64,000 bases of DNA, from assembly GCF_018860385.1 (NCBI RefSeq), contig NZ_JAHKPH010000014.1:1-64000 (forward strand), given 5' to 3'. The notes beneath the pieces were generated by a model. That model did no database searches. It saw only the letters and a list, made by a program, of their open reading frames with translations, and was not told where the DNA came from. The DNA comes from Reinekea forsetii. GTDB lineage: Bacteria; Pseudomonadota; Gammaproteobacteria; Pseudomonadales; Natronospirillaceae. Position numbers and translations under genes: made by a program. Each line of letters begins with the position of its first letter. Within the stretch, counting starts at the first letter, position 1. Shown here one piece after another: positions 18,173 to 20,828 of the stretch.

Positions 18173-20440
18173 TTAAATGGCACACGCGCCAGATTCACAA
18201 CCCACTTCTTGCTGCACACTTTGTTCGTGTTTATTGCTAGAGCCATCGTGAGTGTTGTGGTAGTAAAGTGTTTTTAAGCCCAACTTATAACTGGTTAATA
18301 AATCTTGCATCAGCAGCTGCATGGGTACTTTGCGCTCGGCAAACTGTTCTGGCTGATAACTGGTGTTGGCTGAAATCGCTTGATCGACAAATTTCTGCAT
18401 AATGGCGACGAGTTGCAAATAGCCTTTGTTGTTGGGTTGCTGCCACAGAAGTTCGTAACTATTCGCCCGTGTTTTAATATCGGGTACGACTTGTTTTAAA
18501 ATACCGTCTTTAGAAGCCTTAACAGAAACCAACGCACGAGGTGGTTCAATGCCATTCGTTGCATTAGCCACTTGAGAAGAAGTCTCTGAGGGCATTAATG
18601 CCGTGAGCGTTGAATTGCGTAAACCGTGAGACAGAATTTTTGTTCTCAACGCCTCCCAATCGTATTGCAAGGGAGTATCGACAAGCTTATCGATTTCCTG
18701 CTTATAACGATCGATCGGCAATGACCCTTGCGAGTATTTAGTTTCAACAAAACCAGGACATGCACCTTGCTCTTGAGCTAAATCGGCTGAGGCATTTAAC
18801 AACTCATACTGCAGCGCTTCAAAAAGTTGGTGGGTTAAATTGTTGGCTGATCCATCGCTATAACGTTTCGAGTTTTTAGCTAAATAATTTGCATAGTTGA
18901 TCACCCCAACACCCAAAGGACGGCGCTTCATCGTTGCCCGCTTAGCGGCGGCTACAGGGTAATCTTGGTAATCCAATAACGCATCGAGCGCTCGAACTAA
19001 AATTCGGCTTAAGCTCGCCAGTTCGTGCAGGCCTTCAATTTTACCCAGATTAACAGCGGCGAGAGTACAGAGTGCAATTTCACCGTTCTCATCATCGACA
19101 CGGGTTAAAGGTGACGTTGGCAGCGCGATTTCCATGCACAAATTGCTTTGTAATATCGGCGCTACGCTGGCAATAAAAGGTCCGTGATCGTTGCACAAAT
19201 CTACATTCTGAATGTAAATTCGACCGGTAGATGCACGCTCTTGCAGCAAGAGCGAAAACAAATCGGTGGCTTTGATGGTTTTTTTGCGAATCCCCTCATC
19301 GGATTCGTATTTAAGGTAAAGCGCTTCAAACTCAGCTTGGTCTGCAAAAAAAGCATCATAAAGATCTGGAACATCTGAAGGTGAAAACAAACTTATATGG
19401 CTGTTTTCGATCAGGCGCTTATACATAAGCTTATTTAATTGAACGCCATAATCTAAGTGACGGACGCGGTTTTCTTCAACTCCTCGGTTATTTTTAAGAA
19501 CCAACAAGTCTTCTACTTCTAAGTGCCATAACGGGTAAAACAAGGTTGCCGCTCCACCTCGAACGCCGCCTTGAGAGCATGATTTAACCGCTGTTTGGAA
19601 GTGTTTATAAAAGGGAATACAGCCTGTGTGGTAAGCTTCTCCATTGCGAATGGGTGAGCCAATCGCTCTTATTTTTCCCACGTTAACGCCAATACCTGCA
19701 CGCGCAGAAACATAATTTACAATTGAGGCCGAAGTGGCATTTATTGAATCTAAACTATCATCGCAATCGATCAACACGCACGATGAAAATTGCCGAGTGG
19801 GTGTACGTACACCCGACATAATAGGCGTTGGTAGCGATACTTTGTGGGTTGAGCAGGCTTCATAAAACTCAGCAACCATAGCCAACCGTTTATCATGCGG
19901 GTAATGGGCAAATAAGCAGGCACCGATTAATAAATAGAGAAACTGAGGTGATTCGAACAGTTTCCCAGTGACTCTGTCTTGCACTAGGTATTTTGCCTGC
20001 AGCTGCTTAACGCCTGCATAAGCAAATTCTAAATCTCGATGATGCTGAATAATATTATCGAGCTGTTGCCAGTCTTCCTCAGAATACTGCGATAGCAATT
20101 CTTTATCGTAGCGGCCTTGAGCAACTAGATTTTTCACATGGGTTGCCAACGGCGGTGGCGTAAATTGGCCATAGGCCTGCTTACGAATATGAAAAATCGC
20201 TAAACGTGCTGCAAAGAATTGGTAGTCGGGTGTATCTGTTGATATTAGGTCTGCTGCGGCCTTTATCAGTGTCTCATGAATTTCAAAAGTAGAGATACCA
20301 TCGTAAAAGCGAATCTTGGCATTGAGCTCAACTTCAGATACAGAAACTTTTTCTAGCCCTTGAGATGCCCAATCTAATACGCGATGGATTTTGTCGAGTT
20401 CGATCGCTTCTAAACGACCATTTCGTTTTTTAATTTGCAC
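18173..20440 (-). CDS. nrdA: Class Ia ribonucleotide reductase, large subunit
   Basis: About 755 residues (E. coli 761). An N-terminal ATP-cone (about 1-90, LDKIHRVLDWASQGLEKVS) gives allosteric control. The active-site cysteines lie in FSSCVLIDCDDSLDSI, SNLCMEIALPT and IALCTLAAVNLG, and the redox-active C-terminal pair is in CESGACAI. The frame is open to a TTG at 20455, but GTG at 20440 is preferred: GGAG lies nine bases before it and the resulting N-terminus aligns with E. coli NrdA. The enzyme makes all deoxynucleotides aerobically and needs no cobalamin, which makes the upstream B12 riboswitch meaningful. Confidence 0.96.
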   Translation of the reverse strand: MQIKKRNGRLEAIELDKIHRVLDWASQGLEKVSVSEVELNAKIRFYDGISTFEIHETLIKAAADLISTDTPDYQFFAARLAIFHIRKQAYGQFTPPPLATHVKNLVAQGRYDKELLSQYSEEDWQQLDNIIQHHRDLEFAYAGVKQLQAKYLVQDRVTGKLFESPQFLYLLIGACLFAHYPHDKRLAMVAEFYEACSTHKVSLPTPIMSGVRTPTRQFSSCVLIDCDDSLDSINATSASIVNYVSARAGIGVNVGKIRAIGSPIRNGEAYHTGCIPFYKHFQTAVKSCSQGGVRGGAATLFYPLWHLEVEDLLVLKNNRGVEENRVRHLDYGVQLNKLMYKRLIENSHISLFSPSDVPDLYDAFFADQAEFEALYLKYESDEGIRKKTIKATDLFSLLLQERASTGRIYIQNVDLCNDHGPFIASVAPILQSNLCMEIALPTSPLTRVDDENGEIALCTLAAVNLGKIEGLHELASLSRILVRALDALLDYQDYPVAAAKRATMKRRPLGVGVINYANYLAKNSKRYSDGSANNLTHQLFEALQYELLNASADLAQEQGACPGFVETKYSQGSLPIDRYKQEIDKLVDTPLQYDWEALRTKILSHGLRNSTLTALMPSETSSQVANATNGIEPPRALVSVKASKDGILKQVVPDIKTRANSYELLWQQPNNKGYLQLVAIMQKFVDQAISANTSYQPEQFAERKVPMQLLMQDLLTSYKLGLKTLYYHNTHDGSSNKHEQSVQQEVGCESGACAI

Positions 20441-20534
20441 TTTGCCAATCTCCAATCATGACAAAGCGGGGAAGCCGTCACACAACAACACCCAGAAAAA
20501 CAGCTGGTGAATGTTGATGTACATGCTTTATTAA

Positions 20535-20550
20535 ACAAGTGATTACTTGT
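20535..20550. promoter_or_regulatory. Perfect 16-bp palindrome in the nrdA leader
   Basis: ACAAGTGATTACTTGT has arms ACAAGT/ACTTGT with four bases between. It lies in the nrdA leader, 95 bases before the chosen start codon. It could be a protein operator, or a short RNA hairpin in the riboswitch expression platform (the following minus-strand bases are TTAATAAA). It resembles NrdR boxes in size but not clearly in sequence. Confidence 0.4.
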
Positions 20551-20593
20551 CATCGGTTCGCCCCGCCCGAGTTAGTGTTTGAATAATCGTCAT
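20543..20593 (-). CDS. Possible 16-codon leader ORF after the riboswitch
   Basis: Directly behind the last conserved bases of the cobalamin aptamer an ATG (20593) opens a 16-codon frame starting MTIIQTLTRAGRTDDK and ending in TAA. It has no clear ribosome binding site apart from the aptamer's own purine-rich end. It may be chance; if translated, it would be under direct riboswitch control. The stop codon falls inside the ACAAGT/ACTTGT palindrome. Confidence 0.2.
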   Translation of the reverse strand: MTIIQTLTRAGRTDDK

Positions 20594-20745
20594 GGCCGGT
20601 CTCCTGGCTTAGGGATCAACATCTGCATTCCCTTCCCAAGACATTGTCTCAGTGGGATTACAATACAGACTTCTCCATTACAGTTGCGGGGGCAGCATCG
20701 GATTCTCACCGATTTCCCAAGAGGCTGTGAATTTAAACAGCCGTC
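20592..20745 (-). promoter_or_regulatory. Cobalamin (B12) riboswitch upstream of nrdAB
   Basis: The minus strand carries the conserved cobalamin aptamer order: TTGGGAAATCGGTG, then GAATCCGATGCTGCC, then CCCGCAACTGTAA (the B12 box core), and finally AGCCAGGAGACCGGCC closing the fold. It lies between a sigma-70 promoter and nrdA. Cobalamin riboswitches before B12-independent isozymes normally switch them off when B12 is plentiful, because a B12-dependent enzyme (here class II NrdJ) can take over. No nrdJ is in this window. Confidence 0.95.
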
Positions 20746-20785
20746 ATAGTTGTTACCAATCTGATTTGCTTTAATAGCAAAGCAC

Positions 20786-20814
20786 AAGATATAGAGATAA
20801 AAATGGCTTGTCAA
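20786..20814 (-). promoter_or_regulatory. nrdAB promoter
   Basis: On the minus strand TTGACA (20814-20809), 17 bases, TATCTT (20791-20786). Transcription would start near 20779 and run into the cobalamin aptamer after about 35 bases. The 5' untranslated region would be about 340 bases, fully accounting for the 20,441-20,828 gap. Confidence 0.75.
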
Positions 20815-20828
20815 ACCATATATAGATA

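Follow-up and report, generated by a model that had tools for sequence, protein, structure and literature searches.

Cobalamin riboswitches upstream of class Ia ribonucleotide reductases (RNRs) are known from a few lineages, as the first-pass annotation of this DNA had stated; examples are Streptomyces nrdABS and Propionibacterium acnes nrdAB. In Streptomyces coelicolor, a cobalamin riboswitch precedes nrdABS, and NrdJ is encoded as well (Borovok et al. 2006, via PMC4991794). In Cutibacterium (Propionibacterium) acnes, cobalamin riboswitches are reported before both nrdAB and nrdDG, with an nrd-box also before nrdAB and NrdJ encoded elsewhere (PMC3848588). B12-elements have also been reported before nrdDG in delta-proteobacteria, with B12 repression predicted where NrdJ is present (PMC545781). 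In Pseudomonas aeruginosa, the nrd genes are described as responding to B12 without involvement of a B12 riboswitch (PMC5962746). With regard to mechanism, Escherichia coli btuB carries a translational adenosylcobalamin (AdoCbl) riboswitch with an L5-L13 kissing loop and a sequestered ribosome site (PMC10653944, PMC11162775), and in btuB and env8 the kissing loop is reported to stabilise P13 and to promote the ribosome-site hairpin (PMC10653944). In the metE riboswitch model, by contrast with an exchange of L13, the strand that changes partners is the 3' side of P13. According to the introduction of PMC10653944, the corrinoid riboswitches known until then repress.

This study revealed an arrangement of riboswitch, nrdAB and NrdJ in Reinekea forsetii that was already known from Streptomyces and P. 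acnes and of which the window, meaning the whole 64,000-nucleotide stretch analysed (contig C12, bases 1-64000), is a further example. The genome measures 3.42 Mb and is 98.49% complete. Our literature search, which was partial in its coverage, returned no paper joining Reinekea and ribonucleotide reductase. The comparison with related genomes provides a counted test, within one order, of the old idea that B12 riboswitches stand before B12-independent enzymes where a B12-dependent isozyme can substitute.

The nrdA coding region (20440-18173, minus strand, 755 aa, GTG start) matches the NCBIfam class 1a alpha model with 1379 bits against a cut-off of 813, and nrdB (18157-17045, minus strand, 370 aa) matches the class Ia beta model with 606.8 bits against 346; RNR domains were also assigned to both proteins by Pfam. 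The nrdA start was placed by reference to the genes of relatives, which begin with GTG, and the closest named relative of the protein is that of Reinekea blandensis MED297 (71% identity). The gene run ends with nrdB, which adjoins a gene on the opposite strand, and a gene for an MBL-fold hydrolase (21476-20829) lies upstream of the riboswitch. The first-pass annotation had described a minus-strand order of promoter, aptamer with B12 box, and nrdA, and all of these could be located:

20813..20828, minus strand: NrdR-type box 1, TATCTATATATGGTTT, scored as a pair with box 2
20786..20814, minus strand: sigma-70 promoter, TTGACA-17-TATCTT, 10/12 matches; visual inspection showed comparable hexamers in G001, G003 and G005
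20782..20797, minus strand: NrdR-type box 2, TCTCTATATCTTGTGC, overlapping the -10 element
20577..20763, minus strand: aptamer of the cobalamin riboswitch, matched by RF00174 along all 189 model positions (1-189) with 111.5 bits and E 4.3e-27
20686..20691, minus strand: CCCCGC part of aptamer loop L5, assigned by its complementarity to L13
20594..20609, minus strand: B12 box, AGCCAGGAGACCGGCC, within the RF00174 match

The RF00174 search that had been proposed gave a full-length match far above the gathering score of 31.5 bits. The aptamer lies inside the interval 20543-20814 that had been annotated; the expression platform (20576-20438), which reaches the start codon, falls mostly outside it. 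The distance between the 3' end of the aptamer and the GTG start of nrdA is 136 nt. Between 20380 and 20900, two promoter-like sites were found against a shuffle mean of 0.7, and terminator-like sites numbered zero.

A feature missing from the earlier annotation is a pair of 16-nt NrdR-type boxes over the nrdA promoter, for which a spacing of about 31-32 bp is expected. The boxes are 31 nt apart, span the -35 and -10 regions and score 38/48. With both boxes required to reach at least 15/24, they form the top-scoring pair in the window, and when the surrounding 150 nt were dinucleotide-shuffled 300 times, no shuffle reached their score. Pairs of this type were also scored in 14 other leaders, 13 of them reached by 0-2 of 300 shuffles and that of G087 by 14 of 300. 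These sequences suggest that the nrdAB promoter may be under NrdR control. A weaker pair (score 34, equalled by 3/300 shuffles) was seen at L005, about 110 nt upstream of nrdJ.

The locus resembles that of S. coelicolor in having class Ia nrdAB behind a cobalamin riboswitch and a class II NrdJ in the genome. Unlike nrdABS, it belongs to a gammaproteobacterium, has no nrdS after nrdB and is predicted to act by start-codon sequestration rather than by the transcription control reported there. The combination of an NrdR-type box at the promoter with a cobalamin riboswitch would provide two-layer control like that of P. acnes nrdAB (PMC3848588), for which one nrd-box is described and transcription apparently terminates ahead of the first gene, whereas here there are two boxes and no terminator-like site. 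The delta-proteobacterial case concerns class III NrdDG and ours class Ia, both being B12-independent RNRs. Finally, the class Ia and split class II RNRs recall nrdAB and nrdJab of P. aeruginosa, another gammaproteobacterium (PMC5962746, PMC4520616), but here, in contrast to the riboswitch-independent B12 response described for that species, a riboswitch precedes nrdAB.

The presence of a second, B12-dependent class II enzyme elsewhere in the genome had been predicted, and we found NrdJ at C5:86219-88132 (561.3 bits; cut-off, 399.95), followed by an ORF with a TSCPD domain that constitutes the second part of a split NrdJ. Genes for MetE, MetH and a CobA-type adenosyltransferase are also present. 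With regard to the proposed check for B12 synthesis and uptake genes, CobQ, the sole corrin-synthesis gene sought, gave no match above its cut-off (one match of 22 bits), so the cell probably imports B12; on the uptake side, an operon was found whose proteins resemble BtuF, BtuC and BtuD among ABC transporter families, all of them below the curated cut-offs. This transporter operon is preceded by a second cobalamin-type element (L002 1591-1510, minus strand), which is itself sub-threshold, with 31 bits for RF00174 (gathering score 31.5) and 45.2 bits for RF01482 (gathering score 50). NrdAB and MetE together would permit growth when B12 is scarce. The metE gene does not stand behind an RF00174 match, the two matches of that gene's genome lying elsewhere, and the B12-independent isozymes are thus not all controlled by a riboswitch.

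RF00174, NrdA and NrdJ were searched in 115 related genomes of one order. An nrdA gene was present in 87 of them, 34 with a short NrdA (E. coli type) and 53 with a long one, and 21 of the 87 also carried nrdJ. Of the 21 genomes with both genes, 15 have a cobalamin riboswitch before nrdA, compared with 0 of the 66 with nrdA alone. For this zero, 12 genomes with unlisted weak matches were scanned by place and the other 54 rest on a more strictly filtered listing; some leaders may be missing where a short contig ends close to nrdA. The earlier proposal that a riboswitch in this position implies a B12-dependent enzyme thus holds throughout, NrdJ being encoded in all 15 genomes concerned. Thirteen of these came from the listing and two from direct scans, namely G012 (35.3 bits, a partial match 464 nt before the start) and G101 (35.5 bits). 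Fisher's test on the counts 13, 8, 0 and 66 gave 2e-10 with kinship ignored; by their labels, the 15 genomes belong to 10 genera and 6 families. In six genomes with nrdA and nrdJ (G007, G017, G039, G095, G107 and G111), scans of the DNA upstream of nrdA gave no RF00174 match. Rows dropped from the counts were an NrdA-like match of 27% identity in G091, a second match of 376 aa in G072, one of two NrdA pieces in G094 (the N-terminal one was used) and 24 matches to the NrdA query with E-values of 9.9e-8 or worse, each inside an NrdJ match. G108, G064 and G030 were counted as nrdJ-positive on partial matches; they are without nrdA, and the totals of 21 and 66 are unaffected.

Among the six genomes of the genus that were examined, G000, G001, G003 and G005 carry both the riboswitch-bearing nrdA and metE, and G002 and G004 have NrdJ and MetH but neither nrdA nor metE. 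This concordance fails outside the genus, where G011 has nrdA and no metE. In G004, neither CobQ nor a CobA-type adenosyltransferase was found, and DNA synthesis in this organism may require B12 taken up from outside. A tree built from 30 of the 34 short NrdA proteins placed the riboswitch-bearing gene of G018 among those of its own genus and outside the Reinekea group. This position suggests separate gains, with the riboswitch joined to a short nrdA at least twice; an older element lost many times may instead account for the pattern.

Given that the cell also has the B12-using NrdJ, nrdAB is predicted to be off when B12 is present, the cell then relying on class II NrdJ. We consider it very probable that the element at 20763-20577 (minus strand) is an AdoCbl riboswitch that represses class Ia nrdAB when B12 is available. 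That it is a decayed or unregulated relic, as the genomes with both enzymes and without the element might suggest, is scarcely credible for an aptamer that is full-length and high-scoring and was kept in every one of the four genomes, out of six examined in the genus, that carry nrdA, with the L13 core kept in those four and in G018. How the signal would reach nrdA was considered from the following elements of the expression platform:

20553..20570, minus strand: P13 hairpin, UCGG-GCGGGGCGAA-CCGA, also in G001, G003 and G005, with stem pairs changed in G018
20566-20561, minus strand: L13 core, GCGGGG, in the loop of P13
20535..20550, minus strand: palindromic hairpin found by folding, ACAAGU-AAUC-ACUUGU, inside the platform and next to P13
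20466..20471, minus strand: L5-like CCCCGC (B1), with which L13 can pair instead of L5, forming the foot of the start-codon hairpin
20438..20468, minus strand: start-codon hairpin obtained by computed folding, pairing GUG, with the Shine-Dalgarno GGAG (20453-20450) in its loop

The palindrome had been noted earlier as possibly forming part of the expression platform or a further operator. The former part stands, in that it folds as a local hairpin inside the platform, and counterparts (like GACAAG..CUUGUC) are present in G001, G003 and G005 and absent from G018; nothing was found that points to a protein operator, the sole operator-like signal being the NrdR-type pair at the promoter. A small ORF of 22 codons (20524-20456), for which a role in the platform had also been suggested, was discarded because the four other short-NrdA leaders contain no similar ORF. 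A P13 hairpin nearly identical to that of the window, AUCGGGCGGGGUGUACCGAU, occurs just after an aptamer at L010 in G079, where the cobalamin riboswitch does not stand before the nrdA match.

The L13 core GCGGGG is complementary both to CCCCGC of L5 and to the identical six bases of B1 in the start-codon hairpin. A loop with the sequence UGAGAAU had been considered as L5 and was dropped, the loop complementary to L13 being CCCCCG. In the five short-NrdA leaders, L5 is CCCCCG in every case and GCGGGG follows within 60 nt of the aptamer in every case. In the long-NrdA leaders, L5 is ACGCG or UCGCG in 10 of 10, and UCGCG follows the aptamer in 9 of 10 (not in G012). Within the 60 nt after the aptamer, GCGGGG is absent from the long leaders and UCGCG from the short ones. 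Across 39 of 40 riboswitches (L025, with no recognisable loop, was left out), the L5 loops paired more strongly with their own downstream DNA than with swapped DNA (11.51 against 10.33, sd 0.28, 0 of 5000 permutations), whereas the duplex energy of the L5 loops of the long group did not differ between long and short downstream DNA (7.3 against 7.2). This complementarity leads us to predict an L5-L13 kissing contact in the nrdA leader.

Folding covered all five short-NrdA leaders (window, G001, G003, G005 and G018) and nine of the ten long ones (G012 was left out), and all L13 folds were computed without the energy of the L5-L13 contact. In the window, L13 can pair with the downstream leader with -13.3 kcal/mol, and none of 500 shuffles was as strong; for the L13:B1 duplexes of the relatives, the numbers of equally strong shuffles among 500 were 13 (G001), 1 (G003), 1 (G005) and 79 (G018). 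The exact CCCCGC before the start of the window gene recurred in 0 of 300 shuffles, and each of the five short-NrdA leaders contains a single six-base partner of L13 ahead of the start, against 5, 21, 9, 8 and 53 per 300 shuffles. When L13 was blocked in the window leader, the cost of opening the start region rose by 5.3 kcal/mol, from 5.5 to 10.7, an effect equalled by none of 97 other blocked segments. Across the five short-NrdA leaders the rise was 3.2 to 10.5 kcal/mol, and equal effects were seen in 0/97, 0/95, 1/60, 3/64 and 0/65 control segments; the effective ones (G003 and G005) overlap the site with which L13 pairs. In these leaders, opening the start region would cost 4.1-6.7 kcal/mol with L13 on its partner against 9.4-17.6 kcal/mol with L13 blocked.

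The GUG start codon of the window leader is paired in the computed fold with L13 blocked. The free fold retains much of the start-codon hairpin, with GUG unpaired at 0.21-0.34. In the L13:B1 fold of G005, GUG pairs elsewhere (0.01-0.10 unpaired), yet the region is cheaper to open. In all five short-NrdA leaders, the L13:B1 ensemble is more stable than the L13-blocked ensemble by 2.0-8.9 kcal/mol.

Among the nine long-NrdA leaders folded, the rise upon blocking L13 was at least 2.8 kcal/mol in six. In G078, G096, G110 and G010 no control segment produced a rise as large, and in G071 and G011 this was the case for 3/121 and 14/86; the rise was small in G038 (1.1), G087 (-0.9) and G101 (1.1). An L5-like ACGCG or UCGCG before the start, present in 8 of 9 long leaders, does not exceed chance (66-217 of 300 shuffles). 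Of 25 other riboswitches with machine-chosen starts, 23 provided values (L025 was skipped and L008 gave none), and the rise was at least 2.5 kcal/mol in 6 of the 23. As judged by folding, an exchange of L13 is well supported in the short-NrdA leaders, moderately supported in the long ones and not general.

Taken together, the nrdA leader would function as a translational OFF switch. Transcription would start from the sigma-70 promoter, whose NrdR-type box pair would provide the NrdR control. Upon binding of AdoCbl, L5 of the aptamer would pair with L13 of P13. With L13 occupied, computed folding predicts that the CCCCGC before the Shine-Dalgarno sequence is free and closes the hairpin over GUG, which is the OFF state. 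When AdoCbl is absent, L13 would take CCCCGC, the foot of the hairpin would be lost and the start region would open more easily, which is the ON state. That L13 is exchanged in this way between L5 and the foot of the start-codon hairpin in short-NrdA leaders is our tentative reading of the folding results, held with somewhat less than even confidence, and the same exchange may operate in long-NrdA leaders. Two points set the nrdA leader apart from btuB: the gene is a different one, and the foot of the sequestering hairpin appears to be contested by L13 itself. This exchange may represent a variant, or a new detail, of the expression platform.

The last two steps could instead proceed through the 3' flank of P13, in the manner of the Priestia megaterium metE riboswitch, with AUGACAA of this flank forming a duplex with UUGUCAU in the start-codon hairpin and the L13 exchange having no role. 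The complementarity is present, with 7 pairs in the window and 5 or 6 in G001, G003, G005 and G018, but the fold with this pairing is less stable by 6.3-13.8 kcal/mol in the five leaders than that combining P13 and the start hairpin, and the higher stability of the L13:B1 ensemble given above, in which the kissing energy is uncounted, also speaks against it; we regard this mechanism as unlikely. The same two steps could also be replaced by control of the transcript level, through termination or decay, instead of access to the start codon. Transcriptional control by coenzyme B12 is what was reported for Streptomyces nrdABS (Borovok et al. 2006, via PMC4991794). In our leader, however, no terminator-like site was found between the aptamer and nrdA, and a hairpin that pairs the start codon was folded instead, which makes control at the transcript level quite improbable here. 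The L13 exchange is kept as the preferred, tentative reading of the last two steps.

Several minor observations concern the RNR genes of the order and the remainder of the window. In the NrdJ proteins of G059, G091, G095 and G107, the TIGR02504 match was broken at model position 281/282 inside a single open frame of 1094-1128 aa, and the NrdA of G094 was matched in two pieces within a frame of 1360 aa. These split matches correspond to intein-like insertions in RNR genes, such as have been reported for Azotobacter. In three genomes of genus g4, sub-threshold matches to the manganese riboswitch RF00080 (38.8-42.4 bits against 45) lie about 1 kb upstream of nrdA, at L061 4612-4794 (minus strand), L050 298-483 (plus strand) and L059 287-480 (plus strand). 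Finally, the window contains an ordinary Alpha-operon ribosome binding site at 3174-3087 on the minus strand (RF00140, 40.5 bits).
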